Source: a virus. From it: DNA of 64,000 nucleotides. The stretch's first letter is position 1. The number at the start of each line of letters is the position of its first letter. Under the pieces are notes generated by a model. The model had not been told where the DNA came from. It made no database searches and saw only the letters and a list, made by a program, of their open reading frames with translations. The stretch covers positions 310,001-374,000 of the IMG/VR virus record IMGVR_UViG_3300027749_002876; one strand, given 5' to 3'. This document shows, one piece after another, positions 4,401-40,648 of this stretch. The translations under genes were made by a program, and so were the position numbers.

Positions 4401-7400
4401 TGTATTACGATAGGATCTGTCCAAACTAATCCGTTTGTTGATTGAATATTAACTAACATTGAACCAGTAGCTGATGTAACATCAAATGCAGGACCTGCTA
4501 TTCCACCTGGATTACTAGTAGATACAGTTATCTTGTTAGTAATATAGCTTATTGTTTTCACATAATATAGTGTATCTGTGGTTATGCCACCAAACACATC
4601 ACCTTGGAATATGATTGATGAATTGACTACAAAGTAATCAACTGTTTCGCACACAATACCATTGTCTAATGCATCTGTTTCAATTGCAATAACTTGTTTA
4701 GGATCAGTAGTTGGTCGTATTACACCGGAACCATTAAATCTACTAGCAGAATAATTACAATTCAATGGCATTTCAACAAAACCAGTAATCATATTATCTA
4801 TAAAAGGTATAGCTTGTGAGTTTGATTTTACTAGTTGGTCTCCGTTTCCTACTTCATATAAATCTATTCTTAAACCATATGTTGAAGTTACGGGGTCACC
4901 TAAGGTAATTATTTTGTTAACCCAATCTACAGTAAAATCATATATTCTAACACTTAGATTAGTAGAGTAATCAATATCAAACAATGCCATACTAGCAGGA
5001 TTTTCTACGATCCCATTGAATGAAAATTCAGTTTGATTTGTACTTGGAATTATTTCTGTAGAAACAACATTAAATCCAACATGACCGTATATAGATGCAT
5101 TCCAATCAGTTCCCGGTCTAGTAGTAACAATCATTGTTAAATTATCAGATATTAGTCCTGGTACTAATTCTTCAGGGCCATATCCTGATAAGAAAGGATC
5201 ACCTTGTACATCATATGCAGTATCTCCAACTGACTCAAAAGCTTTATCTTCTAAGTTAGTATCTATCGTATATTGGTCTTCGGGTGCAAAAGCATTACCC
5301 AAATATGTTCCATTAGGATAAGTAATACCAGTAACTAGTTGAGTTAAATCTAAACCAGGCATGTTAACTGTAGGTTGATAGTATCCAATGATACGATCCA
5401 ACTCATTAAGTTGTCTATCACCACTATCCATTAGTTCCCATTTACCCAATATAAATTCGTTATCATTGTTACTAATGATACATTGCCATACTTTGTTATT
5501 GTATTTTACAATACTTTGATTGAAGTAGAATGGCTCAGGCAAGAATACATAATCACCTAATTGGTATTCTGTTTCTAATGTTATGCCATTTACCGGAACA
5601 GTCATTAATGAATCAGTGTATACTTCACATTCTGTTGCAGTAATAACTTTTAAATAATATTGATTTACTATACCTGCAGGAGTACCCGAACCAATTACAC
5701 TTGTAATGTTTCCATCTGATTCTATTGGCAATAAGAAATTATTATCAGGCGAATAAATGAAATTAGGATTAGCAATAATTACATCAATACCGGAAACTGT
5801 CAACACTAAATCATTTAATGGACTCGTTCCGCCTAAATCAGTACCAGAAATAGTAATAGTATTATCAAATGTATAACCTGAACCCTGATTTACTACCTCT
5901 ATAATGTATCCACCTAGTTTGTTACCAATGTTGAATGTTGGTGGCGAACTTGTATCCGGAGATTGTGTAAATACTGTTTCTTTAATTTGATTAACTGTTA
6001 TTGGTTCAACACTACCGCCTGAACTTGTACTCAGTGTGATATAAGGATTGTCTGCGGTTAGTGTCATTTGACCATTATCAGTTGTTAGTACAAGGTCACC
6101 TCCACCTATTGCATCAGTAATAGTAAATGAGTCACCACCTAAATCATAACTATTAATAAAATATGTTACTAATTCAACTACATTACCAAAAACTGCGCCA
6201 GAGAACGATATTGGCATACCAATATAGAATCCAGTTGTTAGTGTTCCTGAGGCTAATGTGTATTTGTTAGTAGATGAAGATGAGCTTGCAACTTCAACTG
6301 ATATTGTTCCGTTAGATACTACATAGTATTCGGTACCAGCAGTCAATCCACCAATATTTTCAGACAATACAAACGGTAAGTTGTTATATATATTTGTTAG
6401 GCCACCACTTAGATATCTCAAATATAAATAATTACCATTACTTGTAGCGGCTACGGTATCTCTTGTTACTAGATTACCATTTGTACCAGTTACTTCAATA
6501 TATGGTGTGTTATCTAACGTTAATGTTGGGTAGAATGTAAACAATTGACCAGTAACTTGCCCTGGACTTACTGGTAACCCAACATTCATAGTCATCGAAC
6601 CTGTTGCAGTTGTTAATTGAACCGCAGTTGTTTGACTTGTCAATGTACAAGAACCTGAAGCAGTTGTCAACGGTACTGCGCCACCATTAATTACACTAGC
6701 AATGGTAATTGTTGTGCCAGAATCAACACTTCTAATATAGTACACTTGTCCTGCATTAATCCCACCAAAAGTAGTACCAATGAATATAATTGGATCATTT
6801 ACATTTAATTCCAATGTTGAAGATACTGTAATTAAATTACCAGTAGCAGTAGTAGCAGTAACAGATAGTATTAACGGATCAGCTTCAGTTGATATAGTGA
6901 ATGTTTCAATATCAACAATAGTTATGATATAATATGTTTCATTATCAATGATTCCACCAAACACACTGCCAACAAAGTATACTGGTAATCCAACATAGAA
7001 CCCTGAAGTGCCTCCGGTACCAGTTGGTAATAACGGTGATGTTATAAAGTTAGATGTAGTTGCCGTTGCAGTTACATTTAATATACCAGGATAAGCAATA
7101 GTAACAATAGCAGTATTAGTTACTGCACCTGCATAACATGATAATCCGGCTACACTAATTGTTTCCGAATTCAATGTAAATGTACTACCACCCACTGTAG
7201 CAGAAATAGTAAATTCAGATTCACCAATGATAGAAGCTACATAATAAGTTGTATTATTTACTAGATTGGTAGTACCTACCGCCCCGACAAACTTAATTGG
7301 CATTCCAATATAGAAACCAATAGTTGATCCAGATGCATTTGGTTCTTCACTACTATATGATAATGTAATAATATTAGATGCAACTGTTTCACTTACTGTA

Positions 7401-10400
7401 CGAACAAGTGAAGACCATTGTAATACTTGATTATTAGAAACATCTTGTATTTCAAATGTTGCACCTTGTGCGCTAGCTAATATATCAGTAATCGGTGGTT
7501 GTGTGGCTTCTAGGGTAATATTAGAACTAGCAATTTGTGTACTATTATTAAATACTCCGGCGTAGAAACTTCCATAGAAGTTATCAGGTGCCCAGTTAGT
7601 AACTCTTGACGTATAAGTTGTTCTATCAAATCTTAATTTAATATTATTTTCTCTAATAGGGGCAGAAGTAGATACACAGCTTGCTCTTGCACTAACTGCA
7701 ATATTGTTATTATTACCAGATCCAACATTTGTAAATATTATTCGGTCACGGTCTTGTAACGCATCAGCATATGTTGTGTATAACGCAACTACATAGAATG
7801 GACTAGATTCTAATACTGCCAAATAATAATATTGACCATCATCTAATCCACCAATTGGAGTTGTATCTGTTCCTACATAATATTTTATTAAATCACCTGT
7901 TTGCACAAATTGTGTTTGTAAAGTAATTGTTCTACTAGTCAAATCTACAACCGTACTAGAGAATGTGATAATTTCACTTGGGTCAATTATTATCTCAGGC
8001 AATACTTGATATCCATCACCCGGATCAATTACATCAATTCTAAGAATTGTATCTAAATTCATTACGGGCTGTAATATGGCTGCACGTCTTGGAGCCGGAT
8101 ATATAGCGGTATCAATATATGCGATAACCTTAGGAGGTTCAGCATAACCTCTACCACTATTCAATAATAAGATAGGAGGCAAATCAATTATAATTTGTTC
8201 ACCTGGAATATGATTTGTTATAGGTGTATCATTAACACCACGTGTTAATCCACTCAAAGTGCTATAAGCTCTGTCAACACTGCTGTATGCAATTTCTTCA
8301 GTACCAATTAATACAACACCGGTTGTTGGGAAACCATATACATTGTCTACTACCATTGCACTGCTATTCAATGATACAAAAGAAGATAGAATAGTTATTG
8401 GATAATTAGGTACTCCGGTTATACTTAAACCTTGATTGTTGAACCAATTAATATATGATTTACTTTGCCATATAGGATCTGTAGGTAAATATTGATTGAT
8501 ACCACTTGGATTAGAATAAACTAACTCAGGTGTAATATACTGTTCATATTGAGTACTGTATTCTGCTGGCAAATCAAAATCAGTTATATTTCCTAAATAA
8601 TTGTCTGATCCTGTATACTTAAATAAGAAATCTTTAATAACAACATGATAAGGCTTAACCTCATTTAAATATCCAGATAAAAATTCTTGATTATCACTTT
8701 GAAATACTTCAAGTGGTAATAATTCACGAATGGTATGCCCTACATCAATAAATGATGTTTTATTCAACCATGGTAAATAATTTTGACTTTCAATTGTTTC
8801 ACTGACAATATATTCAAATAATAAAATCAATGCATCATTTCTATATTGTAACAAACTACTAGGTAATTCTTCATTCAATGCACGAATAATATAACGTGTT
8901 TCTTCACTAGGGAATGTATCATATGGTGTAGTATCAAAAAAGTTGTCACCAAATCCTAAACGAGCATCAGCATAATCCCACAATGAACTATTAAATTCTA
9001 TTGTGCCATTTTGTAAACCAATACGATTCCAATTTACACCATCATATACATAAGTTTCTTGTAACCCTTCACCATTTTTATTAACTGTGACAATTAATCC
9101 TAGTTGGGCATTGATTGTTGCTAAGTCATAATATGATTCTACAAGCAATGAGGCCCTAGTGTTATTATCATATCCCGGTGCCCACCAATTAATTACTTCC
9201 CAATAATCTTGTGTATTATAAAACAATAACGGAGTTCCTGGCCAATTGGGGTTATCTACAGTAGATGGGTTTATTTCCCCTTTAGTAAACAAGAATTTTA
9301 AACTACTAGTTTCTGTTAATGGATACTGTAACAATACTTCATTATAAAATTTTAAATAATTTTCTAATGCCTTAAATCTATTATAAAAGAAACTTTGACG
9401 TGGACGGGTTAATATACCACTCTGCACCGGTTTTGGTAAGTTAGGATCGGGAACAACTCCGCCGGTTCGATCCACACCACTAAAACTCTCTAACATTTTA
9501 TTATACAATGATTCCGGTACTATGGTAGTACCTGTCCCAGGTAAACCGGGCAAGAAATCATCTGCGTATTTTGAACGAATTAAACTGTACACACTATGTG
9601 ATACATCATCATTTGTACCAGTTGCAAATCCAATATGTAACACTGTATCACTTGCATTAATATTAGATGCACAATTGTACAAACCAAATACATTTGGTTG
9701 TATTGGTGCCATATATGATATACCAGTTGCTAATGGGGTAGAAATATATGACTCACATATAGTATCTGATAGTGTTTTACCTATCTGATTGAATACAATA
9801 TTTGTATTTCTTACCCAATAATAATATACAGGTACAATTGAACCAGTACTATTTAATCTATATTGAACTACATAATTCTCAAAGTTATTTGGTGTTCCAG
9901 GTCCCGGATAAGCAATAGGTTCAACATCACTTGTGATCCAACTACAAACTTTCACATCACTTCCTGGGAACACTCGGCCCCACCACACACTATTATAAAC
10001 CACATCATTACTTTGATGATAGTTTACAAATTTTGTCGTAGATGTGTCAAACCATAACTTTCCTAATTCTCCCGGCCCCCATACAGCAGAGCCTTTATTT
10101 GTTGCGTCAGGACTATTATAATTTGCAGGGTCAGCATTAGATACTATATCTAAATTCTGTCGCACTGCACCTAATATTTTTCCTTGCAAGGGATCAATAT
10201 AATCTAAATTGTCTAATGTATTATTTGTTGTTACACTGTATAATTGAGCATTTTGTATTGCATCCGTATTAACAATAGGGGCAGAATTACGATACACAGA
10301 CCAATCTGGATCGCCGGATGTATTATTGTATATCACAACTTGTCCATTGTCATATCCTGGTCTAAAATTAGGAGTACCAATCATTACATAATTGTTGGTA

Positions 10401-13400
10401 AATTCTAATGCAGTTCCATAATATGGTTGGCTACCGTAGTCAACATTTAATGCATTAACACTTTGTGCATATACGTAAGCGCCAGGATTATTTACAGTTT
10501 CATTGTATACTGACAAATAATCATACATATAGACTGCACCTGCATTAATAAAACTATCTAAAAACTGTGTTGTATTGTTATCAAACAGTGTATCATTGTT
10601 ATAATTTTCATCATCACTTGCATCAAATGTAGTTTCTGCGTATCTAGCAGAAACAGGTGCACTTACCACAAATGAACCTGCTGAATTGAATTTAATTGTA
10701 TGACCAAATTCTGTTCTACCCTGGCTGTGCGGATCATTAATCAATTGCGTTTGTGTATATATTTTTATACCTAATTGGTCTAATACATCTGCATTTAATA
10801 CTGATAATGTTAACTTAGCATTGATATATGCCAAATCTATACTAATAACTTGTATGGTTAAAATATTATCGATTGATGCTGAAGCAGTAACATTTGTAAT
10901 ATTTGCCGCGGCAATTGTATTGGCTACAGTTGTTGCGTTGCCTACAGGTAATGACACTGAATAACCATTAAGTAAAATAGTTGCCGGTTCAGTTAGATTA
11001 CATTCAGCATAACCAGTTATTATACCGTAACTACCGCCACCATATGTATAACGATATACTGCACCTTCTTGATTTTTATTGTTTATTTCAAAAGGAGCAC
11101 CTATTAGTATTTCATTTGCATAAGTATCTACGGCTAAACTGTAACCAAAGTTTGTTCCAACTTCTGGATTAGAATCCATTGAAGTAAATTCTTGCGTTAA
11201 TATAAATTCTGATCCACTAACATTTATAATATCACCTGCTGTTAATGAGCTATAGATGCTTATACTTGATGTAGATACAGCGTATTCATTATCATCAATT
11301 AATGTACCATTAACACTAACAAAGATAGGTTCATCCTGTGCAACCATTGTCATATTACCGGATGAGTTATTCAAAGTTACGGTTGAGCCATTTCTAGTCA
11401 ATGATAGTGTTACAGTAGAACCAATAATTGTTTTGATATAATAAACTTGATTTAATGCTACATTACCATATACATTCCCTGTAAATATTACAGGTGTTCC
11501 GTTTACACCTGCAATTAAACCAGTAACATTATTTAATGTGATAGCATTACTTAATATACTTGATGCAGTTTTTAACAGAATAGTTGGTTGATATATCAAA
11601 GTAAATATTTGTGGAGTATCAGGGAAGCTATTATAAGGAGCTTCAAATGTTTGCACTAATCTTTCAAAAGAATATGCATAACCCAAATCATCAACACCGC
11701 TATCTTGGTAAGGTGCACTTATAATAATATTATTTCCATAATAATTAGTAGAAATAGAATATCCAAAATTATCACCACCATTTGATACGGTGCCAGTACC
11801 TGATTGTGTTGAAGCATTACAAGTAAATTTTATTCCTACTGTATTAGATGATGCTCCTAATGCCACAAAGTCAGTAGTGCCTAAAGATTCTATAACGTAT
11901 ATTCCACCTACATTTAAATTACCAACACCAATGATGTCCGGAGTATTAATGATATTTGAATATTCATATTGGCCGGTAAGTTGAGATTTACGATAAACAT
12001 AAACTAAATTTTGGTCAGATGCAGAAATATACAACCAATTTTGATCTCCGGACAATGCGACAGATGAGCCCCAGTTAACTACAGAATTATTGCTAGGTGA
12101 TTCGATCACTTGATATTCTTGTAATTCATTTATTAACTTATTAATAACTAAATCATAGATATATACTTTTCTGTCAGAATAAGATGCACCGGTTGGTTGT
12201 GATATTACAAATAAATTATCTGTATAAGAAATAGTAGAACCAAAAGAATTACCATTAGTTATTGTTTGTACAATACTAAATGAATTAAACACAGGACTAT
12301 ATGAATAACGATATGCGGCTCCAACTTCAGCATCAGTAACTAAGTATCCTAAATTAGGAGTAATTGCAACTGCACTACCATATGTTATTGATTCAGTTTT
12401 AAATAACTCATCCTCATAAACATAGTTTAAACTCTTGCGATATACAGCCCAAGAGCCGTCATTGTTTTCATCTACCCATACTTTATTTTTTACAAATTCA
12501 CTGTCAAGTAATGGCAATGTATTAATATCTTTAGGTGTCGCAACACGTTGTGATGAGAATTTAAAAGCTACACCTTGACCAAGAATTGTAGTTACAGACG
12601 GTGATAAACTTAATAATATTGTTACTCTAAAATTATCAACAACACTTGAAACAATTCTGTAACCATTAACACTATCATTAAAATTAATAATAGCAAATGG
12701 TTGATACTTAGTTAAATCATGAGGTGTAGCAAATTGCACAGTTACTGTACCATTCATATTATTAACAGCACCTATTACTTGACCAGCACTAGATGGAGTA
12801 TATACTTGCCATGTACTAAGGTAATCTGCTAACCATACATATTCATTTACGTATAATTTAGAAAGTGGTGTAACCGCAGTATTCAACCCATTATAATAAT
12901 ATGCTGAAATTTTTACATCATTAAAATTAACGTATCCAGCATCCGGGAACACTGTGTTTGGAGTATCAGATGGTAATGTAGGCAATACATTAGGGTTATT
13001 GATAGGTCTACCATAATTGAATATTGAATATAGAGGAACTTCTTGCTGTACTCCATCAGTATATACACCGTTAGTTAAGCCAACAATACTAGGATTACTT
13101 GTTAGTAAATTTTGATTCAAACGGAAATCTACAAAGTTATTGTTTAGTACACCACCAAACTCTCCAGTCTTAATGGCCCAGTTATCATAGATATCATAAT
13201 CAATTCCACCTTGTGGTAATGCTAATCCTTTAAAATTATTTGCCGCAACTCTTGTGCCTTTTTCTTTAATAAGATTCTTATAAACATTGACTTGTGTTAT
13301 ATCTGTTAGGTCAGCAAGTGCAAGATAATCACGTGGTCTATATCCAATCAATGACCAACTTAACAAATCACTATCTTGGTCTAAATTACCTTTATTTGTA

Positions 13401-16400
13401 TCATAAAATAGTGTACTTTCATATGAACGTGTGGAACTATTAGGTAACAATCCCTTTTGAATTTCATTATAATCTGTTACTTTCCAATCTTGTTCTTCAA
13501 ATATTTCTTTTGCATTTAATACTTTTAATGCAAACCAATATCTATTTTTATACCTAACGATACTGCCACGAGTATATTTTGAATTAGTACTCCATTCTTC
13601 TATGTTATCTTGATTTAAAACAAACCCCTGTGCATCAACAGTACCGTTCCATTCAGCAGATTTTGTACCTCTGGTTAAAATACGATTTTGTCTTAGTCCG
13701 GTAGTCAAATTATATAAAACATCATTAAACACTGTTACGTTATCAAAAACAATACCATGCTCAAAGTTACTGATATTAAATTGACCATATGCAACAGTAT
13801 CGCCTTCATTTAGTGGTCTAGCACTAAAGAATGTGCTATCACGATTAATAGACAAATCTACACTTTGTATCGGATAGAAATTTTGATTTAATATAAAGTT
13901 TTGTTTTTGTAGTGTCAATGGTTGTACAACATGACTATCTTTATTGATTGTAATTAAATTAGCGGCTGGATTTAAATTAACTAAACTACCTACTTCCCAA
14001 CCAGATTGTGACCAATATAATAATTCAGTAATCATTTGACGCCAGTTAACATCTATACCAGATTCAATTTGGTCAAATAATACACCTTCAGTTAATAAAA
14101 ATTGACCGTAACTGGCAACAAATTGACTTAATGATTGTATATCAACAAATTCTGTACCATAAGGAATTATATTAGTTTTTGTTTCAGTATAATCATTTGA
14201 AATTTGTACTGAAATGTCACCTACGGTGATTTTGTTATAGTTACCATTAATTTTAGGTGTTACTGTTGTAAAATAAGCCGTGTCTTGTGAATTACCAAAG
14301 ACTTTCCAACCTGTACTTGTACTTTGTACAATTATACCACTGTATATAATAGTAGTTGTAGGTATGTTGTCATACAATAGTACACTATAACTTTCATCAG
14401 GAATTAACAATGACGCATTTCTACTGTTTGGTGTTCCTTTTTCTACATAGAATCCAAGCAAACTCTTATCACTAAATCCAGCAAGTCTATAAATTAACCT
14501 TACATCTAAATTATCAAACAAATCAGTAATGTTCTGTGTTGCATTAACACCAACTTGTTTTTCGTAATCAACAATCCAATTAACATAACTTGTCTTAGCA
14601 GTACCAGTACCATATATGGCAACATCACTGATAATCAAATGACTACGATTATTTACTAGATACTGATTAAACTCAGTACTATATTTGTAATTGTCTACAT
14701 CAAACCCTAAGTTAAAAAATTGAGCAGGTTTAGTAAGGGCAAGAATCTTCATTAAATCAAACGGCCAACTACTACTTCTACGATAACTAAATTCTGCAGG
14801 GCCAACATCGCCAACTACCCAATCATTACGGAAAGTTCGTTGACTATAATTACCCATGACAGCATCGAACGGTGATAACAAATTGCCGGCACTGTCTACT
14901 GGTATAACTTGTAACAATTCTTCTCTAATAAATTCAGGTAACACAATTGGATTACCGTTATTCCAATTAATACCCGCAGACATATCTCCCCATAATATTA
15001 AGTTATCACTTGTATAAGGAGCAGGACCGTATCTATTAGTCCACCAACTAGGTTCATCAGTAAAGCCAATCATTTCCCATGGACTTATATTTGGAGTGCT
15101 AGTATCGTAAAAATATTCATATATACCTCTCCAAAAACCTTGTTCAAATGCTTGACCATTAATCTTATTACCTGATTGATTATAGTTGTAACTATACTGG
15201 TCAGTTGATTGATAAAACTGTTTTTTGTATTCAATACGATTTTGTCCAACCCAGTTTAAAAAATACTGGCTATATATTTGTAATACTTCATCATATGAAT
15301 AATCTGTAGTTCTAAAGAATCCAGGTATTACATCATATTTGCTTACTGGAATTAAATCTGACAATTTTAAATTATTGTAAATTCTAGTCTCAAACTCTAA
15401 TAGTGCTTGATCCTTAAAATCAACTAAATATCCATCAATGTAATCACCATACAACTTAGTATAAGAACCATCGTGACCTAATATAAAATATGTAGGTTGT
15501 GAGTAATTAGGATCTAGTACAACGCCGGGTATAAATGAGGGATATAAACCTAACTTAGTTGGTGTATTAGGTATATAACTTCCAAATGTTTGATTGTATT
15601 CTCTAATAGTTACAATATCCCCTGGTAATAAATCTTTTGTAATAGTTAGTGATGGACTATCTGTACTTACTATATAATCTTGGTTAATTATTAATTGAAT
15701 AGTTGAAGTAAAATTATTAACCGTAGTTGTCAAATAAACCAATACACCATAATAATTAGCAGTGTCAAAATTATATATGCGTGTTAATGGATAGATACTT
15801 ACATCTAAAGAATTAGCAAAGGTGTATATATTTGTAGCATATGCTGATTTGTTTGGCAACATATCACTCCAGAAAAAAGGTTCTGAATCAGTTTTATTCG
15901 CAGTAATTTGATCTAATGCATCATCTAATATAGTTGCCGGCGTTTGTCTTGTGGTAAAATCAGTTTTATCTATTGTATAAACCAACAATGATTTAAAATT
16001 TATATATTGTTGACTATTGTATTGTAATGAGTTAAACAAATTGTGATTTGGTGATCTTAACAATGATCCTGGTAATGCCAATGAGGCACTGTTCTGAATA
16101 ATTTTAGTACCCCATGGTACAAGATTTCCCAAATCTCTATAATTGTTTGAACCAAAAATAGTACCAGTTGTGTTTGGATTATTATAGAAAATACTTTGAT
16201 ACTGTCCGCGTATATCGCCTACATTTATTACAGTTACGTCATTATTGAATGGGTTATTTTGTAAGTTGATAGGTATTTGATAATATGCAGTAGCACTTAC
16301 TTGGTCACTTAACAATGTTATTTCAACTACGGTATCAATTAATGGATTAGGTACTGTGAAATTTACAATGGTAGAATTGTCTGTAATAGTAAAAGTGTAA

Positions 16401-19135
16401 GTTGCTGTATCTTGTAATACGTTATTAACATAGACTTGAATATTGGGCCATACTGTATTAGTAGCGGCTGCAATATCACATGTATAGGTTGTAGTTGCTT
16501 CAGACGCAACATAGTTAAAAGAAAATATTTGATATTGACGGCTTTCTGCAACCGCAGTTTGCCAACCCAATTGTCTAACTACCGTTGTTCTAGAGGTATA
16601 ATTATATACATATCCAGTATTAACTTTTTGTGTGATTGGTGATGACCCCTGTACATAATTAAAAGTAGCACTATTTAAAGGTACGTCAAAACTTATATCA
16701 CCCACGTTGTTAACTGAACTATAACGAAGTGGAAACCCTAATATAATATCTTTTATACCTGAACCAATTCCATAGCTGAATAATTTATTTCCTGCAAAAG
16801 ATGTACCAACATATACCTCTTTATTACCAAAACTAACACCGTCATTGTCAAAAACATCAAAATAAGGTGCTTGATTAACAGTTGTTTTTTGTTGTGCTAA
16901 TAACCAAATATTACCATCAAAGTAAAAATCTTTACCTTGATTGTTATAACCCTTGAAAGCAAAAGTACATTCTAGTGGTAATACTAATCCATTTTCTACT
17001 TCTGTAAGCGTAATTACTTGTGTTCCATTACCTTGTATATCAGAAAATCTCACAACATAAATTTTGTCTTTAACACTTGAAGTTGTATCAGCAGAAAATA
17101 CAATTCTTGCACCATCGTATAATGCATAATTGTCATTAGACAAATCATTAGCAATTAATGAAGATGTTGTAGTAGATACAATAGTAGTTACATTATTCCA
17201 TTCTACTGTAAGAATTAAAGTAGTTTCCCCACTGATATTAGTAATTTGTGTATTTCTAGGAAGTACATTAGTGGTATCACTTATGTATTGACCAATTTGA
17301 AAAGCGCCAGTAATATCATCCGTATCTATTGTAATAGTTGTAGTTGTTCCTGTGGCGGCTGCAATGTGAGCAGTATAAGCTGTATATACTTCAACATCTG
17401 GCCAATAGTTTTCTTGTCCAGCCACATACCTAAAGGCATCAGTTGTTCTATCATCAAAGAAATCAATTGGTGCTTTACCTATAACACCGTTATTGAATAA
17501 TCTTAAATTAGGATAAAATTCAATAATAGGGCGTTTAGCTTTATTATCTTGTGTAGCGTAAATTGTTGCAATACTAGGATTATTATTATATGTTGCTGTT
17601 GCATTAATTACGTCTATGTGGAACCATCTATTACTGCGGCTCCATGCATTCTTATCAATGCTATTTCTTGATATGGTAATATAATCTTGATATAAAGGAA
17701 TATATAATGTACTATCAAAATTACCTATATCATATGGCAGTGAATCGTATGGTGTGTACGTTCCTGTAGTAAAGGGTTCTGGAGCAATAAGAGTAGTAGT
17801 ATCTAATAATTGAATAGAGGTGCCCACACCTTCTACGTAATATTCACCTTCTTTATAACTTGTAGGAAAAATATCACCTGAAAAACTTACTTTAAGACCA
17901 TTTGTAAAAACTACACCATTCGGACTAGTATATTGTTCTCTACCTAATATAGTATTAACATCTAATTGATTTGTTGTATTACTTTCAATCAATCTAATAA
18001 TACCTACTTTGTTTGCGCTAGTACCATCTTGGTAATACAATGTATCTAATACTGCACTTAAGTAAGGGATAAGGTTAATTGATCCAGAGGTGTTACGATA
18101 GAAATTTCTTGCTTTCCATTGTGTTCCATAATTCGCTGTGATTTTTTGATTTGTAGGAATACTTCCTGTAGGTTCTAATATCAATAAAATTTCAGATCCT
18201 GAAGTATCATATACTATTGTATAGATTGTAGCCGATACATCTACATCGCCGGTGTTGTAGAACATCACCGTTAAACCTTGTAAACTTGTTACGCCATCTA
18301 TGTTGTTAACAGTGCTTAACAATTGACCATTTATTTGATCAAAGGGCGTAGTGGATACTAAATCTACTAGATTATTCCCGGGGAAATTATAATCATCTTG
18401 TGCATTTTTATATGGAACAGTAAATGTCACTACACCTATTGTGATGCCGTTATTTTCTACACCCAATACATCACGTGTCTGTATGTTGGGTTGTTGTGGG
18501 TCATATCCAGTTATACCAGGTTTACCTTGAATCCAAAATTCTGATGACTGATTTACATTAAATGTATATGTACCGCCACGAATTAATGTCAGTGTTGGGT
18601 TCGTTGTACCGGCTAGATTAATATCACTTGAAATATTATAACCATTAGGTAAACTTTCAACGGTGTAATCAGCCGCAGTGTAAACAATGTCAGTTGAAAT
18701 ATTAACAACTGGTGCACCAGTTGGCAACCAATAATATTGATTAAAGTTAATAATTTTATCTAGGTTGGTAAAACTATCCCATGAGTAGAATTCACTATTA
18801 AACAATCTATCATTGTTATTTGTTATACCGCCTTCTAAACTTAATGCATCAATTATACCAGGATAGCTAATGAAATCCTTAGCTGTGCTAGTATTTGTTT
18901 TTGTAAATACAACGCCTGGATCTAATTGATAATCTGTTCTTGTTTTAGTAGGTTCAACTACGTAACTGTCTTTAGCATTAATACCGTAACCAAATCTGCT
19001 ACCAACATAGCCTTCAATTCGCATCGTGTTTGGTTGGTCAACAATTTGATCCAGTGTTGCACCTAAAAATTGTGCGTTGGTAGGTGTTTGAAATATTTCT
19101 GGTAAAAAGCTTAGTGTTCTAATTCGTGCTGCCAT
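1466..19135 (-). CDS. Giant tail/baseplate-associated protein, 5889 aa
   Basis: One uninterrupted 17.7-kb frame, directly downstream of gp6 and preceded by a GAGAG ribosome site. Residues ~1-150 (LSFLPEIFQTPTNAQFLGAT, a DYQLDPGVVFTK stretch, FNQYYWLPTG) match the conserved N-terminus I associate with very long structural proteins of aquatic T4-like phages. Residues ~2250-2935 contain seven FG-GAP-like blades (for example FGYSISTNYYGNNIIISAPY), suggesting an integrin-type beta-propeller. From ~3700 to 5600 a module with the core FGGI...YYI plus a short SGSM-type strand repeats many times; another copy lies near 2570, inside the propeller region. A GTT.F..IGA.SNTVG motif occurs three times. There is no enzyme motif. 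The place in the operon corresponds to T4 gp7/gp10-type peripheral baseplate or fibre genes. Role inferred: long appendage or adhesin attached to the baseplate periphery. Confidence 0.8.
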   Translation of the reverse strand: MAARIRTLSFLPEIFQTPTNAQFLGATLDQIVDQPNTMRIEGYVGSRFGYGINAKDSYVVEPTKTRTDYQLDPGVVFTKTNTSTAKDFISYPGIIDALSLEGGITNNNDRLFNSEFYSWDSFTNLDKIINFNQYYWLPTGAPVVNISTDIVYTAADYTVESLPNGYNISSDINLAGTTNPTLTLIRGGTYTFNVNQSSEFWIQGKPGITGYDPQQPNIQTRDVLGVENNGITIGVVTFTVPYKNAQDDYNFPGNNLVDLVSTTPFDQINGQLLSTVNNIDGVTSLQGLTVMFYNTGDVDVSATIYTIVYDTSGSEILLILEPTGSIPTNQKITANYGTQWKARNFYRNTSGSINLIPYLSAVLDTLYYQDGTSANKVGIIRLIESNTTNQLDVNTILGREQYTSPNGVVFTNGLKVSFSGDIFPTSYKEGEYYVEGVGTSIQLLDTTTLIAPEPFTTGTYTPYDSLPYDIGNFDSTLYIPLYQDYITISRNSIDKNAWSRSNRWFHIDVINATATYNNNPSIATIYATQDNKAKRPIIEFYPNLRLFNNGVIGKAPIDFFDDRTTDAFRYVAGQENYWPDVEVYTAYTAHIAAATGTTTTITIDTDDITGAFQIGQYISDTTNVLPRNTQITNISGETTLILTVEWNNVTTIVSTTTSSLIANDLSNDNYALYDGARIVFSADTTSSVKDKIYVVRFSDIQGNGTQVITLTEVENGLVLPLECTFAFKGYNNQGKDFYFDGNIWLLAQQKTTVNQAPYFDVFDNDGVSFGNKEVYVGTSFAGNKLFSYGIGSGIKDIILGFPLRYSSVNNVGDISFDVPLNSATFNYVQGSSPITQKVNTGYVYNYTSRTTVVRQLGWQTAVAESRQYQIFSFNYVASEATTTYTCDIAAATNTVWPNIQVYVNNVLQDTATYTFTITDNSTIVNFTVPNPLIDTVVEITLLSDQVSATAYYQIPINLQNNPFNNDVTVINVGDIRGQYQSIFYNNPNTTGTIFGSNNYRDLGNLVPWGTKIIQNSASLALPGSLLRSPNHNLFNSLQYNSQQYINFKSLLVYTIDKTDFTTRQTPATILDDALDQITANKTDSEPFFWSDMLPNKSAYATNIYTFANSLDVSIYPLTRIYNFDTANYYGVLVYLTTTVNNFTSTIQLIINQDYIVSTDSPSLTITKDLLPGDIVTIREYNQTFGSYIPNTPTKLGLYPSFIPGVVLDPNYSQPTYFILGHDGSYTKLYGDYIDGYLVDFKDQALLEFETRIYNNLKLSDLIPVSKYDVIPGFFRTTDYSYDEVLQIYSQYFLNWVGQNRIEYKKQFYQSTDQYSYNYNQSGNKINGQAFEQGFWRGIYEYFYDTSTPNISPWEMIGFTDEPSWWTNRYGPAPYTSDNLILWGDMSAGINWNNGNPIVLPEFIREELLQVIPVDSAGNLLSPFDAVMGNYSQRTFRNDWVVGDVGPAEFSYRRSSSWPFDLMKILALTKPAQFFNLGFDVDNYKYSTEFNQYLVNNRSHLIISDVAIYGTGTAKTSYVNWIVDYEKQVGVNATQNITDLFDNLDVRLIYRLAGFSDKSLLGFYVEKGTPNSRNASLLIPDESYSVLLYDNIPTTTIIYSGIIVQSTSTGWKVFGNSQDTAYFTTVTPKINGNYNKITVGDISVQISNDYTETKTNIIPYGTEFVDIQSLSQFVASYGQFLLTEGVLFDQIESGIDVNWRQMITELLYWSQSGWEVGSLVNLNPAANLITINKDSHVVQPLTLQKQNFILNQNFYPIQSVDLSINRDSTFFSARPLNEGDTVAYGQFNISNFEHGIVFDNVTVFNDVLYNLTTGLRQNRILTRGTKSAEWNGTVDAQGFVLNQDNIEEWSTNSKYTRGSIVRYKNRYWFALKVLNAKEIFEEQDWKVTDYNEIQKGLLPNSSTRSYESTLFYDTNKGNLDQDSDLLSWSLIGYRPRDYLALADLTDITQVNVYKNLIKEKGTRVAANNFKGLALPQGGIDYDIYDNWAIKTGEFGGVLNNNFVDFRLNQNLLTSNPSIVGLTNGVYTDGVQQEVPLYSIFNYGRPINNPNVLPTLPSDTPNTVFPDAGYVNFNDVKISAYYYNGLNTAVTPLSKLYVNEYVWLADYLSTWQVYTPSSAGQVIGAVNNMNGTVTVQFATPHDLTKYQPFAIINFNDSVNGYRIVSSVVDNFRVTILLSLSPSVTTILGQGVAFKFSSQRVATPKDINTLPLLDSEFVKNKVWVDENNDGSWAVYRKSLNYVYEDELFKTESITYGSAVAITPNLGYLVTDAEVGAAYRYSYSPVFNSFSIVQTITNGNSFGSTISYTDNLFVISQPTGASYSDRKVYIYDLVINKLINELQEYQVIESPSNNSVVNWGSSVALSGDQNWLYISASDQNLVYVYRKSQLTGQYEYSNIINTPDIIGVGNLNVGGIYVIESLGTTDFVALGASSNTVGIKFTCNASTQSGTGTVSNGGDNFGYSISTNYYGNNIIISAPYQDSGVDDLGYAYSFERLVQTFEAPYNSFPDTPQIFTLIYQPTILLKTASSILSNAITLNNVTGLIAGVNGTPVIFTGNVYGNVALNQVYYIKTIIGSTVTLSLTRNGSTVTLNNSSGNMTMVAQDEPIFVSVNGTLIDDNEYAVSTSSISIYSSLTAGDIINVSGSEFILTQEFTSMDSNPEVGTNFGYSLAVDTYANEILIGAPFEINNKNQEGAVYRYTYGGGSYGIITGYAECNLTEPATILLNGYSVSLPVGNATTVANTIAAANITNVTASASIDNILTIQVISIDLAYINAKLTLSVLNADVLDQLGIKIYTQTQLINDPHSQGRTEFGHTIKFNSAGSFVVSAPVSARYAETTFDASDDENYNNDTLFDNNTTQFLDSFINAGAVYMYDYLSVYNETVNNPGAYVYAQSVNALNVDYGSQPYYGTALEFTNNYVMIGTPNFRPGYDNGQVVIYNNTSGDPDWSVYRNSAPIVNTDAIQNAQLYSVTTNNTLDNLDYIDPLQGKILGAVRQNLDIVSNADPANYNSPDATNKGSAVWGPGELGKLWFDTSTTKFVNYHQSNDVVYNSVWWGRVFPGSDVKVCSWITSDVEPIAYPGPGTPNNFENYVVQYRLNSTGSIVPVYYYWVRNTNIVFNQIGKTLSDTICESYISTPLATGISYMAPIQPNVFGLYNCASNINASDTVLHIGFATGTNDDVSHSVYSLIRSKYADDFLPGLPGTGTTIVPESLYNKMLESFSGVDRTGGVVPDPNLPKPVQSGILTRPRQSFFYNRFKALENYLKFYNEVLLQYPLTETSSLKFLFTKGEINPSTVDNPNWPGTPLLFYNTQDYWEVINWWAPGYDNNTRASLLVESYYDLATINAQLGLIVTVNKNGEGLQETYVYDGVNWNRIGLQNGTIEFNSSLWDYADARLGFGDNFFDTTPYDTFPSEETRYIIRALNEELPSSLLQYRNDALILLFEYIVSETIESQNYLPWLNKTSFIDVGHTIRELLPLEVFQSDNQEFLSGYLNEVKPYHVVIKDFLFKYTGSDNYLGNITDFDLPAEYSTQYEQYITPELVYSNPSGINQYLPTDPIWQSKSYINWFNNQGLSITGVPNYPITILSSFVSLNSSAMVVDNVYGFPTTGVVLIGTEEIAYSSVDRAYSTLSGLTRGVNDTPITNHIPGEQIIIDLPPILLLNSGRGYAEPPKVIAYIDTAIYPAPRRAAILQPVMNLDTILRIDVIDPGDGYQVLPEIIIDPSEIITFSSTVVDLTSRTITLQTQFVQTGDLIKYYVGTDTTPIGGLDDGQYYYLAVLESSPFYVVALYTTYADALQDRDRIIFTNVGSGNNNNIAVSARASCVSTSAPIRENNIKLRFDRTTYTSRVTNWAPDNFYGSFYAGVFNNSTQIASSNITLEATQPPITDILASAQGATFEIQDVSNNQVLQWSSLVRTVSETVASNIITLSYSSEEPNASGSTIGFYIGMPIKFVGAVGTTNLVNNTTYYVASIIGESEFTISATVGGSTFTLNSETISVAGLSCYAGAVTNTAIVTIAYPGILNVTATATTSNFITSPLLPTGTGGTSGFYVGLPVYFVGSVFGGIIDNETYYIITIVDIETFTISTEADPLILSVTATTATGNLITVSSTLELNVNDPIIFIGTTFGGINAGQVYYIRSVDSGTTITIASVINGGAVPLTTASGSCTLTSQTTAVQLTTATGSMTMNVGLPVSPGQVTGQLFTFYPTLTLDNTPYIEVTGTNGNLVTRDTVAATSNGNYLYLRYLSGGLTNIYNNLPFVLSENIGGLTAGTEYYVVSNGTISVEVASSSSSTNKYTLASGTLTTGFYIGMPISFSGAVFGNVVELVTYFINSYDLGGDSFTITDAIGGGDLVLTTDNGQMTLTADNPYITLSTSSGGSVEPITVNQIKETVFTQSPDTSSPPTFNIGNKLGGYIIEVVNQGSGYTFDNTITISGTDLGGTSPLNDLVLTVSGIDVIIANPNFIYSPDNNFLLPIESDGNITSVIGSGTPAGIVNQYYLKVITATECEVYTDSLMTVPVNGITLETEYQLGDYVFLPEPFYFNQSIVKYNNKVWQCIISNNDNEFILGKWELMDSGDRQLNELDRIIGYYQPTVNMPGLDLTQLVTGITYPNGTYLGNAFAPEDQYTIDTNLEDKAFESVGDTAYDVQGDPFLSGYGPEELVPGLISDNLTMIVTTRPGTDWNASIYGHVGFNVVSTEIIPSTNQTEFSFNGIVENPASMALFDIDYSTNLSVRIYDFTVDWVNKIITLGDPVTSTYGLRIDLYEVGNGDQLVKSNSQAIPFIDNMITGFVEMPLNCNYSASRFNGSGVIRPTTDPKQVIAIETDALDNGIVCETVDYFVVNSSIIFQGDVFGGITTDTLYYVKTISYITNKITVSTSNPGGIAGPAFDVTSATGSMLVNIQSTNGLVWTDPIVIHNGTNLVLGEQGIISETNSGTNTIVVNSTDNYAVNDTITFSNAMSFNNFTLTAGSFVLGQLYKIATVGTTNFMAIGALSNTVGVIFTATGTGTGTGTVLAGIIPLQSYYITSIINNEFTDEFTVSSSLAGTDVILNNASGIALCVTNDYAITIVDQGITAKLVFSSQYNQNDDFVVLSIFGETAPIQYGYTVPEVQIFTLTSASTEFALTNFVGQDNADNAIVEYNGLRLTNNKDYTINSSTNTLSLTIITTVGSILSVTSYNLTDRQYLNTIYAGSFTGSVTTVLTISNATHEPGFDDLNYDIGYYSPGPDYLTLGSGSTTSINVNDAIKFNDPTIGGIIANQIYYIVEIFNSTTFAVSENVGGIPVTLITESGSMTGITNPPTVANITAINNSINQPLAVTTVTNTTDTTNIITCGTTAGFILNQPVIFRNITPIGFGNINADGTVYYVKSVADLTSFTISETLVAGVAGPTLELTTDTGLMVASVGGNNSVTITTGVPHNLVENDIVRINGVLGSIELNNNTYYAKVINPTQIGLYFTPYNPTLYYVNDPVTQVSTYLGNGYVWFDRIFTLETTNASATTTLNNAITVSSNRQLILGTPVLFTGTVFGGIQSQVTAGSFIVGNTYQIIETGTTFWTSIGSLSNDPGTTFVATGVGFGNGIATAIYYVNDLIGVYEFNVTAVRNGAVYPLTTGTGSMNVSLWEQTNVDRLWVTVNGKRVPSSALYLNPQNNLSILTVIQPGDIVTITNMIPTATPNETVYIENVNRSNEQSIFRSNSLTRTWLTYGLQDIDDVIYLEDVSRVTASIVQNETAPVVVDDTMSIGLNGDKNTISEVIVYNNTSSLLVDPAEYRIVIENTAPVLVIDIDPTSPSIIVGNNLTVTVILGNLIYINGEQIRYTTVNFDENTLSGLQRGANGTGKLTYIPKFTTVYGILSSNVLPDVYNGFSWNSFNYNLVDGDPLQISTTYPANFLNADVP
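2480..7870 (-). repeat. Repeated FGGI...YYI modules inside the giant tail gene
   Basis: Protein-level repeats of roughly 45-70 residues over about residues 3750-5550. Each has a hydrophobic strand ending in a pattern like IIFIGTTFGGI, a short gap, YYI or YYV, an IT(I/F)(T/S)(I/V)S strand, and a LTTASGSM-like strand. Copies are diverged, so this is an old duplication array rather than recent slippage. Copies at DNA ~6740, ~6940 and ~7260 are easy to see. They look like beta-sandwich or beta-helix building blocks of a fibre. Confidence 0.6.
10330..12390 (-). repeat. Seven FG-GAP-like blade repeats (beta-propeller) in the giant gene
   Basis: Seven units with the pattern (F/Y/W)G.(S/T/A)(V/I/L)...........(I/V)(I/V).AP followed by a (V/A)Y.Y strand, at about residues 2250, 2295, 2354, 2455, 2663, 2812 and 2902. 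Spacing is uneven because other modules are inserted between blades 4 and 5. Seven FG-GAP repeats is the number in integrin-alpha-type propellers. Confidence 0.55.
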
Positions 19136-35838: not shown

Positions 35839-35852
35839 AATAAAAATGTGTT

Positions 35853-36346
35853 GTCCTGGTTGCAGGACCTCCTTGAGTTTGTACAGATTGTGCTGTGCTG
35901 ACGGATCTGGAGTAAGCGTGTATAGCGATATATACGGAATACCGAGAAGGCAATCGACAAAGCGAACCTTCAACAAGTCTATTGATATTTTGTCTTGAAT
36001 CAATAGAATGTGCGTTGCTGAATGAAACACAATTGTGCGTAAATTCAACTACAATCCCATATACTTTACAGAGCAACCGGTAGCATTTAATAGCATCAAA
36101 TAGCTAATTGAATGGGGAATAGATAACACTGGATGACGGTCGTGCAAAACAACCTTTACCATTGGTAGTGCTGAACAGCACTACCATGGCTTCAAATCGG
36201 CAATATAGTCTTTGATAAAAAAGAATTAACAGAATAGATAACCGTAAACAATAAGAACGAACGAAGTGAGTTCTTAGATGAACGAAGTTCATCTTTACTA
36301 AGAAACAATATAATAACCCGATATGATAAATGAACAGTTACGGGTT
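35853..36346 (+). ncRNA. Candidate structured non-coding RNA region (hairpin-dense, gene-free)
   Basis: About 510 bases between convergent genes with no credible reading frame. At least seven inverted repeats follow one another: 35853-35868 (GTCCTG/CAGGAC); 35917-35936 (8-bp stem with one G-U pair and a GCGA tetraloop); 35978-36007 (TCTATTGAT/ATCAATAGA, 12-base loop); 36159-36189 (a 9-10-bp stem GGTAGTGCT/AGCACTACC extended by CCAT/ATGG past one bulged T); 36252-36276 (TAAGAAC/GTTCTTA); 36276-36294 (AGATGAAC-GAA-GTTCATCT); 36315-36346 (AACCCG/CGGGTT). The GNRA-type loop favours plus-strand RNA. No known RNA family is recognised, and no convincing promoter is seen. The last three hairpins could instead be a bidirectional termination zone. 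Confidence 0.4.
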
Positions 36347-36349
36347 TGA

Positions 36350-36580
36350 TTAGAAGAATGGTAGTTGTGATTTCTTAGTAACTTCCATATTACTATCAAT
36401 AATTTTCTTAATTTCTTCACGTTCCTCAGTGGACATGTTTAATACATCTTCATATGAAACACCACCACGCATGTACCAACTCATACTAAGAGCACTTTTC
36501 TTAATATCGGTACACTCTTTTTCCATATTATCTATCAGCTTCTTTACGCCTTCGTGGTCAAGGCGCAGAAGCCTTATCCG
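36350..36580 (-). CDS. Frameshift-encoded C-terminal extension of the gp26-like chaperone
   Basis: Frame -1 relative to the gp26-like gene, open from the slippery site to TAA at 36352-36350: 76 codons. The first 18 (RIRLLRLDHEGVKKLIDN) lead into a possible internal ATG at 36526 that would give a 58-aa protein. The downstream part contains ALSMSWYMRGGVSYEDVLNM and STEEREEIKKIID, the W..rGG.sy......ER layout familiar from lambda gpT-like tail chaperone extensions. No ribosome site precedes the internal ATG, whose upstream region is buried in a stem-loop. Best reading: translated mainly as a 351-residue gp26 fusion by -1 frameshifting, analogous to lambda gpG-GT. Independent translation is the alternative. 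Confidence 0.7.
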   Translation of the reverse strand, partial: RIRLLRLDHEGVKKLIDNMEKECTDIKKSALSMSWYMRGGVSYEDVLNMSTEEREEIKKIIDSNMEVTKKSQLPFF

Positions 36581-36586
36581 AAAAAA
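36538..36586 (-). promoter_or_regulatory. -1 programmed ribosomal frameshift signal
   Basis: Slippery heptamer T TTT TTC at 36586-36580, in the correct phase (GAT TTT TTC GGA TAA in the zero frame). A 7-base spacer (GGATAAG) follows, then a stem-loop at 36572-36538: outer stem GCTTCT/AGAAGC, inner stem CGCCTT/AAGGCG, 7-base loop. The zero-frame stop comes one codon after the slip site, and the -1 frame has no stop for 76 codons. All elements of the classic signal are present with textbook spacing. Confidence 0.75.
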
Positions 36587-37474: not shown

Positions 37475-40400
37475 ATGCCACAAAATTTAGATCCAGATGC
37501 AATGGAGAAATTCAATGAAACAATACGTGAATTGAATAACACCATGCCCTCATTTATTTTGGGCATTAATCAAGTGATAGGTGTTGCTTCCGGGTCAGTT
37601 AAAGCGTCTGATGCATTAAAAAAATTAGCAGATAGTGCTAAAGAGGGCACTGCATATGAACAAGCACAACTAGCCGCAAAAAAGAAAAAAGATATAATAG
37701 ACGCAAATCGTGAAAATGCACAGACACTAGCAACTAATTCATTGAAACAGTTTGGATTAGGTTTAGCTAGTACAACTGCTGAATTCTCAACATTTGGTAA
37801 AGTTGTAGGTGGCGCCGGAGACGCCGCACTAGCTTGGGGTAAAAACTTAGGTATGCTTGGTTTGGCAATGGGTGTATTAATTAAAGCTACTACACTAGCC
37901 GCAGAAGCCGCAATGAAACAAGCTGATAATGTTTTAAAGGCTAAAGACGAATTATCTAAAATGGGTGTAGCTGGTGGAATGACAGCTAAACAGTTACTAG
38001 AAATGGGTAATGCAGCCGGTTACTCATCTGAGAAGTTAGGAGTAATAGCTAAAGCTTCAAGATCAATGGGCACTGATATCATGTCCCTTGGTGGCAATGT
38101 AAAACAAAGCGTGAAAGCATTTGGTGATATGACTAAAGTTGGTGATGACGTATATAGTTCATTTCAACGTTTAGGTGTGTCACAGGAAGAACTAACACAG
38201 AACCAAGCTGACTATGTAAAATTACAAGCATCATCCGGTAGAATGATAACAGAGCAAATGAAGCGTGATGGTAGTTTAAAAGAAGCTTCATTGGAATATA
38301 CTAAAAACTTATTAGAATTAAGTGCTATCACTGGTAAGTCAATGAGTGAATCGAAAAAAGCTATGGAAAGAGCCCAAGCTAGCGCCGACATTACGATACA
38401 TACGCAAAACTTAGAGGATGAAAGAAATAAATTAATGGCAACCGGTAATGCTGCCGACAAAGAAAAAGCAAAACAAATTCAAAAAGAATTAGATGCTAAT
38501 AAAGCTATGTTGTTAGCGGCAGAGGCTACCGGTGATGCACAATTCTTATCAGCGCAACAAAGTAGAATTGCAACAGGAGCATGGACAGAATCAAGTACAG
38601 TATTATTAAGAACATTACCTAATTATGAAGAACTTCAACAAGGGTTAAAAGAGGGAACACTAACCCAAGCTGATTATATGAAAGCTATCGCTGAAGGTAC
38701 AAAACGACAGAGAGAAACATTAGGACGTGCCGCCGTCTTTGATAAAGAAATGGGAGACAAACAAGGTCTTTCATTGGCTTTGTTACAGAATTCAGCAAAA
38801 GTATTAGGTAAGGATCTCCCAGGAGCATTGAAAGAAGCGCAAACCGATATTAAAAATGCCGCAGAAGGTAAAGGAACTGGTTCAGGAACCGATCCTGCAG
38901 AGATAGCAAGAAACAAAATGACAGAGCTTACCCGCACTATATCTGTGGGTCTAGATGAATTATTAGGTAAGGCTAGTCCATTCATACAAGGATTTAATGG
39001 AGTAACTACGGCAGCTACATTATTGACAGGTGCTGCCATGGCAGCCGCGCTTTATTTAGGTAAATTAGCTGTACAATTGAAGATAGTTGATGCATTGACT
39101 GCCGCAAAAAATATAGGTGGTTCAGGTCTTCCGGGTGGTGGTTCAGGTCTTCCGGGTGGTGGTAAAGGTGGTCCAGATACAAAGACTTCTGAAGGTCATT
39201 ATAAAGATGAAAAAGGTCGTTGGAGAGATTCTTCAGGCAGGTACAGTAAAGCTCCACCTGTTGAAGCCCCGAGCACTGGTAAAGCACCAGGTGGAGCCGG
39301 CAGGTTTGCCGGAGCTAGCAAGGCTATGGGTGCATTAAGTAAACTTGTTGGACCTCTTGCTGGATTAGTGTCAATTGGATCTGGAGCTATGAATGCTACT
39401 GAAGGTTATAATGATGCTGAAGATCAAGTTAACAAAGGTGAAATAACAAAAGAAGAAGGTACTGTCAAGAAAAGTGAAGCTGTTGGTAAAGGTATTGGTG
39501 AAGGATTAGGTGGCGCCGGAGGTGCCGCATTAGGAGCTATGATTGGAACAGCTATATTCCCTGTAGTAGGTACAGCAATAGGCGCCGCACTTGGTGGATG
39601 GTTAGGCTCTAAAGCCGGAGAATCTGTGGGTGAAGCTGTTGGTGAAACTGTAGGTAAAGAGATTGCTAAAAAACCTGTCGTTGCAACAACTGCCGCAAGA
39701 GCGTCAGCTAGCTCAAAACCATCCTCTGGTTCATCTTCCGGCTCATTACCTAGTTCATCTGGTTCATCTTCCGGTTCATCACCTAGTTCATCTGGTTCAT
39801 CTTCCGGCTCATCGGCTTCACCTGTAGTTGCTACAATGGCATCTAGTTCAGCAGGTGGTGATGATAGTAGCAAAGGACCAGCAGATGTTCCAGTAGCAAA
39901 ACCAACTGGTGGTAAAGATGGCGACGTTCAAATGGGTCAAGAAGTAAAAATAGGAAATGAAATCCATAAAGGTGGAACAGTTTCTTGGAGAACTAATAAT
40001 CCGGGTAATGTTTCTTTTGGTGGGTTGTCTAAGCAATACGGCGCAATAGGGGCGTGGAAAAAACTTGACGGAGATGCTCAACAACGAAGTACTGGTATTG
40101 CCATCATGCCATCGATAGAAGCCGGTGATAATTTAAAGATGGCATTATGGCGTCGCCCAATGTACATTGATAAAACAATTGATGAAGGTGTAGCCCAATG
40201 GACTGGTACAACTGGATTAGGCTCAGGTTATGCAAAAGATTTAGCACAAGCTGCCGGTGCATCCATGAGTACTGTGATAGGTACATTAACGGACCCTCAA
40301 TTAAAAGCAATGATTACAAAGCAAAGAGCATGGGAAGGATTTAAACCCGGTTCAGTAGTTAGTGCATCACTAGAAGGTATCGCAGAAGGTCCAGAATCTG

Positions 40401-40648
40401 GTTACGCTGCCATATTACACGGTAATGAAATTATTAAACGATTAACTAAAGATTCAATATTAGATAAACTTGCTAATACCCCAGCAGGAGATATGTTTGG
40501 TACCAGTGCGGGATCTAATACTAATTCAGGTAATAATGAAATGGTCGATCTAATGAAAGAATTTTTAGAAAAAATGGATGACTTAATTGATGCACAATCT
40601 GATAGCAATGATATACAAAGTGAATTATTAGAGTATTCAAAAGTTTAA
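37475..40648 (+). CDS. 29: Tail tape-measure-like protein with C-terminal muramidase-like domain
   Basis: 1057 residues; T4 gp29 has about 590. Residues ~1-500 are mostly helical, with a hydrophobic helix near 123-145 and another near 508-530. Residues ~670-730 are Gly/Ala-rich and hydrophobic (GGAALGAMIGTAIFPVVGTA). Residues ~740-800 are a Ser/Gly/Pro repeat linker. Residues ~830-960 look like a phage virion muramidase/transglycosylase domain: SWRTNNPGNV, YGAIGAW, GIAIMPSIEAG, IDEGVAQWTG, and WEGFKPG at the end. The last ~40 residues are a helical tail. Tape measures set tail length and enter the cell envelope; a lytic domain here would replace the one missing from the gp5-like spike. The link to gp29 is by position and architecture, not by close sequence match. 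Confidence 0.7.
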   Translation: MPQNLDPDAMEKFNETIRELNNTMPSFILGINQVIGVASGSVKASDALKKLADSAKEGTAYEQAQLAAKKKKDIIDANRENAQTLATNSLKQFGLGLASTTAEFSTFGKVVGGAGDAALAWGKNLGMLGLAMGVLIKATTLAAEAAMKQADNVLKAKDELSKMGVAGGMTAKQLLEMGNAAGYSSEKLGVIAKASRSMGTDIMSLGGNVKQSVKAFGDMTKVGDDVYSSFQRLGVSQEELTQNQADYVKLQASSGRMITEQMKRDGSLKEASLEYTKNLLELSAITGKSMSESKKAMERAQASADITIHTQNLEDERNKLMATGNAADKEKAKQIQKELDANKAMLLAAEATGDAQFLSAQQSRIATGAWTESSTVLLRTLPNYEELQQGLKEGTLTQADYMKAIAEGTKRQRETLGRAAVFDKEMGDKQGLSLALLQNSAKVLGKDLPGALKEAQTDIKNAAEGKGTGSGTDPAEIARNKMTELTRTISVGLDELLGKASPFIQGFNGVTTAATLLTGAAMAAALYLGKLAVQLKIVDALTAAKNIGGSGLPGGGSGLPGGGKGGPDTKTSEGHYKDEKGRWRDSSGRYSKAPPVEAPSTGKAPGGAGRFAGASKAMGALSKLVGPLAGLVSIGSGAMNATEGYNDAEDQVNKGEITKEEGTVKKSEAVGKGIGEGLGGAGGAALGAMIGTAIFPVVGTAIGAALGGWLGSKAGESVGEAVGETVGKEIAKKPVVATTAARASASSKPSSGSSSGSLPSSSGSSSGSSPSSSGSSSGSSASPVVATMASSSAGGDDSSKGPADVPVAKPTGGKDGDVQMGQEVKIGNEIHKGGTVSWRTNNPGNVSFGGLSKQYGAIGAWKKLDGDAQQRSTGIAIMPSIEAGDNLKMALWRRPMYIDKTIDEGVAQWTGTTGLGSGYAKDLAQAAGASMSTVIGTLTDPQLKAMITKQRAWEGFKPGSVVSASLEGIAEGPESGYAAILHGNEIIKRLTKDSILDKLANTPAGDMFGTSAGSNTNSGNNEMVDLMKEFLEKMDDLIDAQSDSNDIQSELLEYSKV
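39119..39160 (+). repeat. 21-bp tandem duplication in the tape-measure gene
   Basis: Two perfect adjacent copies of a 21-bp unit (encoding GSGLPGG), in a flexible Gly-rich linker. Perfect identity suggests a recent slippage event. Confidence 0.8.
39727..39812 (+). repeat. 33-bp Ser/Gly/Pro-coding tandem repeat in the tape-measure gene
   Basis: About two and a half copies of a ~33-bp unit encoding SSGSSSGS(L/S)PS, differing by single bases. It forms a flexible linker before the muramidase-like domain. Confidence 0.7.

Follow-up and report, generated by a model that had tools for sequence, protein, structure and literature searches.

How does the gp26-like gene of this phage end, in one protein or in two? 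The gene lies in a window of 64,000 nucleotides from a 524,565-base virus record, that of a jumbo phage whose structural genes are of T4 type, as judged by the portal gp20 and the capsid gp23 identified by Pfam. (The window also contains a single 5889-aa open frame at 1466-19135 on the minus strand.) Tail assembly chaperones made by frameshifting are exemplified by gpG and gpGT of phage lambda (Xu, Hendrix & Duda 2004; review PMC5009743), and T4 is the stated exception among long-tailed phages to frameshift-made tail chaperones (PMC5009743). A sequence-only reading of the window had proposed that a complete -1 frameshift signal joins the gp26-like gene to a hidden frame of 76 codons. Our analysis, which is likewise one of sequences, indicates that programmed -1 ribosomal frameshifting very probably yields a short (TAC-N) and a long (TAC-NC) tail assembly chaperone from this gene. 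The features concerned are listed in Table 1.

Table 1. Features of the gp26-like gene and its surroundings, in window coordinates.
Feature	Position	Strand	Basis or remark
Gp26-like gene, zero frame, 276 aa	36574..37404	-	PF12322 T4_baseplate and phrog_150; read as short chaperone (TAC-N)
Slippery heptamer T TTT TTC, X XXY YYZ phase	36580..36586	-	Sequence; bases invariant in relatives
Zero-frame stop TAA	36574..36576	-	One codon past the heptamer
Two-part stem-loop, putative stimulator	36537..36573	-	6-7 nt after the heptamer; fold and covariation
-1 frame segment, 76 codons and stop	36350..36580	-	Read as C-terminal extension of the long chaperone (TAC-NC)
Divergent neighbour, 1057 aa, tape-measure-like protein	37475..40648	+	phrog_167 tail length tape measure, E 1.6e-8

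The 3' end of the zero frame reads ..TCT GAT TTT TTC GGA TAA, and the parts of the signal first described are all in place: the heptamer in its phase, the stop one codon later, the two-part stem-loop and the spacer between heptamer and stem, given as 7 bases and measured by us as 7 nt, or 6 if the closing G-U pair counts. The 76 codons of the -1 frame span 36580-36353 and are followed by TAA at 36352-36350. The predicted fusion therefore has 275 + 76 = 351 aa, and both lengths agree with those originally proposed. The -1 segment matched phrog_18291 with E 2.5e-4. To estimate chance, we scanned both strands of the window for an in-phase XXXYYYZ close to the stop of any ORF with 100 codons or more. 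Two matches were returned, both inside the gp26-like gene, and only T TTT TTC gives access to an open -1 frame, which continues for 74 codons beyond the zero-frame stop. It is the sole in-phase slip site of the window that lies near the end of an ORF and enters a long -1 frame, which is far more than chance would supply.

The same arrangement recurs in related phages. With the gp26-like protein as query, 80 loci were found in IMG/VR; nearly all had T TTT TTC, or A AAT TTT in the most distant group, in matching phase and ahead of a -1 frame some 75 codons long. Further sequences came from isolate phages and an additional scan, and removal of near-duplicates left 96 distinct 3' ends. An in-phase heptamer entering the same -1 domain (consensus FFRxxLL...SWYMRGG.SYEDxLNMS.xER) was found within the last 20 codons in 91 of these, and the -1 frame behind it extended for at least 60 codons wherever the contig reached far enough; the -1 frames that seemed truncated in L063, L073 and L077 were so only in appearance, at contig ends. 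The conservation that the sequence-only reading had suggested looking for at gp26-family 3' ends, in heptamer and -1 frame alike, was found. The A AAT TTT of the most distant group (L072-L079) is another tandem-slip heptamer. Among isolates, slip site and -1 domain are present in 121Q, RaK2, CBB, GAP32, Munch, PA5oct, Atu_ph07, Phosso, SCTP-2 and XacN1, and the slip site was further found in pEa_SNUABM_47, Paride, XaC1 and CM1. Across relatives the zero-frame stop lay 0 to 12 codons beyond the heptamer, indicating that the position of the stop is free and that of the slip site is not. A search for the -1 domain in plasmids found nothing.

Five of the 96 3' ends had no heptamer in the scanned range. 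One, LR756511, has T TTT TTC 70 nt before the stop, beyond that range, and there it does open a -1 frame. Two are the L059/L060 genes considered below. In the remaining two, SP-15 (L101, 3640-3913) and LR756508 (L097, 3690-4003), the C-terminal domain of the gp26-family gene lies in the +1 frame, and these phages may use a +1 (or -2) frameshift. The SP-15 gene stands directly before the annotated tape-measure gene.

Cyanophages carry the slip site as well. In P-SSM4, T TTT TTC is followed by a -1 extension that is the gene annotated as gp51 behind gp26, and this -1 frame matched phrog_634 with E 6e-31. A separate scan for the cyanophage type gave 72 distinct loci, in 71 of which T TTT TTC stood in phase before a -1 domain annotated 'gp51'. 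The slip site is at the same place as in the jumbo phages, whereas the domain behind it is about 65 aa long with a different consensus, and no conserved stem was found there. The sole exception, L155 (3190-3240), has TTTTTGG for TTTTTTC and forms a continuous in-frame fusion; its 236 kb contain one PF12322 copy, and the change may be real or an assembly error.

With jumbo-type and cyanophage-type loci taken together, the slip site was found in about 160 distinct related loci from independent assemblies and isolate genomes. This bears on the suggestion that the interrupted frame is an assembly or sequencing error, or a decaying gene, and that the true gene is a single frame of 351 aa. L155 and the long gene of L060 do read through in one frame, but the recurrence of the same site and phase in so many loci, the purifying selection on the -1 frame described below, and the isolates 121Q, PA5oct, Atu_ph07 and P-SSM4, which already refute such an error, leave this explanation with hardly any credence.

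We then asked in which frame the region behind the slip site is under selection, using 37 distinct relatives without indels. All seven bases of the heptamer and one flanking base on each side were invariant, and the synonymous sites of the -1 frame were highly diverged (dS about 0.9). From the slip site to codon 19, the -1 frame had a dN/dS of 0.39, and the two other frames 1.31 and 0.90; beyond the first conserved internal ATG position, at codon 21, the values were 0.17 for the -1 frame and 1.01 and 2.54 for the others. The low ratio directly after the slip site indicates that the -1 frame is translated from that point on.

This result matters for an alternative that treats the small frame as an overlapping gene in its own right, translated by reinitiation from either the ATG at codon 21 (giving 58 aa) or an ATGA at the stop. 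The 58-aa ATG ORF is present in the window, about half of the relatives stop with TGA, so that a -1-frame ATG or GTG overlaps the stop, and the database records of 121Q, Phosso and the cyanophages annotate the small frame in this way. Such a start, however, is not conserved: the stops adjoining the slip site were TAA in 26 distinct sequences, TGA in 22 and TAG in 1, and with this mixture an ATG or GTG overlapping TGA is not a fixed feature of the gene. Among the 37 relatives the -1 frame has no start codon common to all, and motifs of Shine-Dalgarno type hardly occur. Selection already acts upstream of the internal ATG, and L060 and T4 gp51 have the domain only as a fusion. Relatives that keep the small frame with a ribosome site of its own and lack the heptamer, a combination that would speak against frameshifting, were not found. 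We accordingly rejected an independent start of the small frame and consider a separate gene improbable. The frameshift reading is thus upheld, with a -1 frame that is conserved and under selection and with in-frame fusions known from T4 gp51 and the L060 ORF. In the isolate records the -1 extension is variously treated: it carries no annotation in PA5oct (L085), Paride (L093) and RaK2 (L087), and is a separate 'hypothetical protein', with a start often placed inside the domain, in 121Q, CBB, GAP32, Munch and others.

The putative stimulator was examined for folding and covariation. The stem-loop has the sequence GGCTTCT GCGCCTT / loop GACCACG / AAGGCGT AA AGAAGCT, and the 67-nt stretch containing it folds with -19.6 kcal/mol (z = -2.75). 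Over 34 relatives, pairing was retained in 88% of cells, compared with 40-51% in controls with slid partners. Cells with changes on both sides of the stem numbered 22, against a mean of 8.9 after shuffling, and the covariation score was 0.242 against 0.184; in both cases none of 500 shuffles reached as high a value. These covariation values call for some caution, since the sequences share ancestry and the stretch encodes protein as well. An Rfam search of the stem region gave no match. In RaK2-like phages and cyanophages z was near 0 in most, and no comparable stem was predicted, which suggests that the stimulator is lineage-specific. The stem-loop claimed by the sequence-only reading is therefore present and covaries in the clade of this phage, but its conservation is limited to that clade and it cannot be essential everywhere. 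A downstream stimulatory RNA structure is common, although not universal, in systems of the G/GT type.

A frame change could also arise in transcription, if RNA polymerase rather than the ribosome slipped on the run of T. The site does have six consecutive T, a run that is short for polymerase slippage. The codon phase needed for tandem slippage is conserved, however; the L072-L079 group keeps the tandem-slip pattern A AAT TTT without a T6 run, and the covarying stem of this clade lies 6-7 nt downstream, at the usual spacing of a ribosomal stimulator. Polymerase slippage is therefore highly improbable, and we regard the ribosome as the agent of the proposed frame change.

The identity of the gene was established by comparison with protein families. 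The 276-aa protein matched PF12322 T4_baseplate in Pfam (E 4.3e-13; 49.9 bits, above the curated cut-off of 24.5) and phrog_150 'baseplate hub' in PHROG (E 7e-13), which places it in the family of T4 gp26 and gp51. An AlphaFold model of the short form reached pLDDT 88, and its best viral Foldseek matches were T4-like baseplate hub (assembly) proteins with TM 0.9. The PDB held no useful relative by sequence and no detectable fold match to the model. PMC3004832 counts T4 gp26 and gp51 among the hub assembly chaperones, and according to it gp51 is needed for assembly and is not found in the particle. The gene adjoins the tape-measure-like ORF, as G/GT-type chaperone genes do, though in divergent orientation, and in Erwinia phage pEa_SNUABM_47 the gene at the same position carries a tape measure annotation. 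From the tape-measure neighbour, the chaperone literature on gp26 and gp51, and the hub-like model we assign the two products as TAC-N and TAC-NC. The proposal that gp26 and its 351-residue fusion form the tape-measure chaperone pair is thus supported by membership in PF12322, by the adjoining phrog_167-like gene and by natural fusions.

The following mechanism is proposed. Most ribosomes would stop at the zero-frame stop and release the 276-aa protein. A minority, slowed at the downstream stem-loop, would slip back by one base with both Phe tRNAs on T TTT TTC and read 76 further codons, giving the 351-aa protein; we infer both that slippage occurs and that the ratio of the two forms is of this kind. 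The long protein would have the N-terminal body of the short form and a small, probably helical C-terminal domain. By comparison with lambda gpG/gpGT, labour may be divided such that the tape-measure protein is coated by the TAC-N body and parts of the tail tube or hub are brought in by the extra domain. The likeness to lambda lies in a short and a long chaperone made by -1 frameshifting. We found no sequence relation between the two systems, their slippery sequences and stems differ, and here the gene is divergent from the tape-measure-like gene, not upstream of it.

In two lineages the extra domain occurs joined to the chaperone in a single frame. Both T4 proteins, gp26 with 208 aa and gp51 with 249 aa, match PF12322 and phrog_150, and the extra C-terminal domain (phrog_634) is in gp51 and absent from gp26. 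T4 thus has a short form, gp26, and a long form, gp51, of the same family, but encodes them as two separate genes on opposite strands without a slip site, where our phage has one gene and a frameshift. The second case is an uncultivated lineage without the slip site, in which L060 (3897-5819) carries a fused (350 aa) and a short chaperone gene in tandem, neither with a slip site. The first of these reads through as ..CEYFRVRLLYMQ..SWYMRGG..LPFF, with the junction GAA TAT TTT CGG; the second is a short form with a GGAG ribosome-site-like motif before its ATG. Judged by its sequence, the 350-aa gene is a natural version of the predicted 351-aa product. (A single-sequence AlphaFold model of this fusion reached only pLDDT 34.) Genomes with the frameshift carry a single PF12322 gene: in a count per record, T4 had two such genes, as did G003, which is the L060 contig and the very lineage that lacks the slip site, whereas 19 other records had one each and SCTP-2 had no match above threshold.

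In the tree, a jumbo group of 12 sequences (support 100/99) contained the L060 pair, and gp26/gp51 of the T-even phages fell into a different, T4/cyanophage clade. Since the two pairs lie in separate clades, duplication and fusion took place independently at least twice. Profile comparison related the cyanophage -1 domains to the C-terminus of T4 gp51 (hhalign 95%, E 5e-8). The jumbo -1 domain occupies the same register, with profile probabilities of 10% against the gp51 C-terminus and 19% against the cyanophage domain; this similarity is not significant and too weak for a claim of homology to gp51. We consider it likely that frameshifting is ancestral in PF12322 phages and was replaced independently at least two times by duplication and in-frame fusion, once before T-even gp26/gp51 and once in L059/L060, with T4 a secondary loss.

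A further conserved element adjoins the locus. At 35840-36349 on the plus strand, flanked by the -1 domain and by a gene for a RusA-like resolvase, lies a candidate structured RNA of about 500 nt. This stretch holds no plausible gene, folds with z -3.75 and is conserved as DNA through this jumbo-phage clade (97% to 67%); over 28 loci it has 72 consensus pairs, 43 of them with compensatory double changes. A search against Rfam 15 gave no match. A covariance model built on its core (R1) further matched L220, L227 and L043, and found no match in RaK2-like, PA5oct, Atu_ph07, cyanophage or T4 genomes. It is possibly a new large phage ncRNA, separate from the chaperone gene.

Tail chaperones made by frameshifting are already known as a class, and the T4 pair has been recognised as chaperones. 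The sequence-only reading knew of no described frameshift in the gp26 family. We likewise found no direct description of one in gp26/gp51 of T4-type or jumbo phages in the open-access literature, but the statement does not hold in full: PMC12846349 mentions poly-T -1 signals in T4-like TAC-N genes, which it credits to Vladimirov, Gautam & Davidson 2022 (Virology 566:9-15). According to PMC10885494 that study identified the T4-like short and long chaperones, and some T4-like phages have, in its summary, one short gene and one longer fusion gene. The TAC locus of Pakpunavirus Adele and Andersonviridae (PMC12846349) is a similar case, a myovirus TAC gene with a conserved -1 frame after a poly-T motif; it differs in belonging to other phage families and in its motif GTTTTT. 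What is added here is the breadth across jumbo phages and cyanophages, the lineage-specific covarying stem and the independent conversion to two genes, part of which Vladimirov et al. 2022 may already report.

These results provide a mechanism for genes labelled 'baseplate hub' and 'hypothetical', and they expose a -1 domain lacking any annotation in PA5oct, Paride and RaK2 and entered as a gene of its own in other records. Isolated phages are available in which the fusion can be sought directly. In many jumbo phages and cyanophages the T4 chaperone family itself would obey the frameshift rule; two lineages would illustrate how frameshifting can be replaced by two genes. If this history is correct, T4, the textbook exception to tail-chaperone frameshifting, lost frameshifting secondarily.
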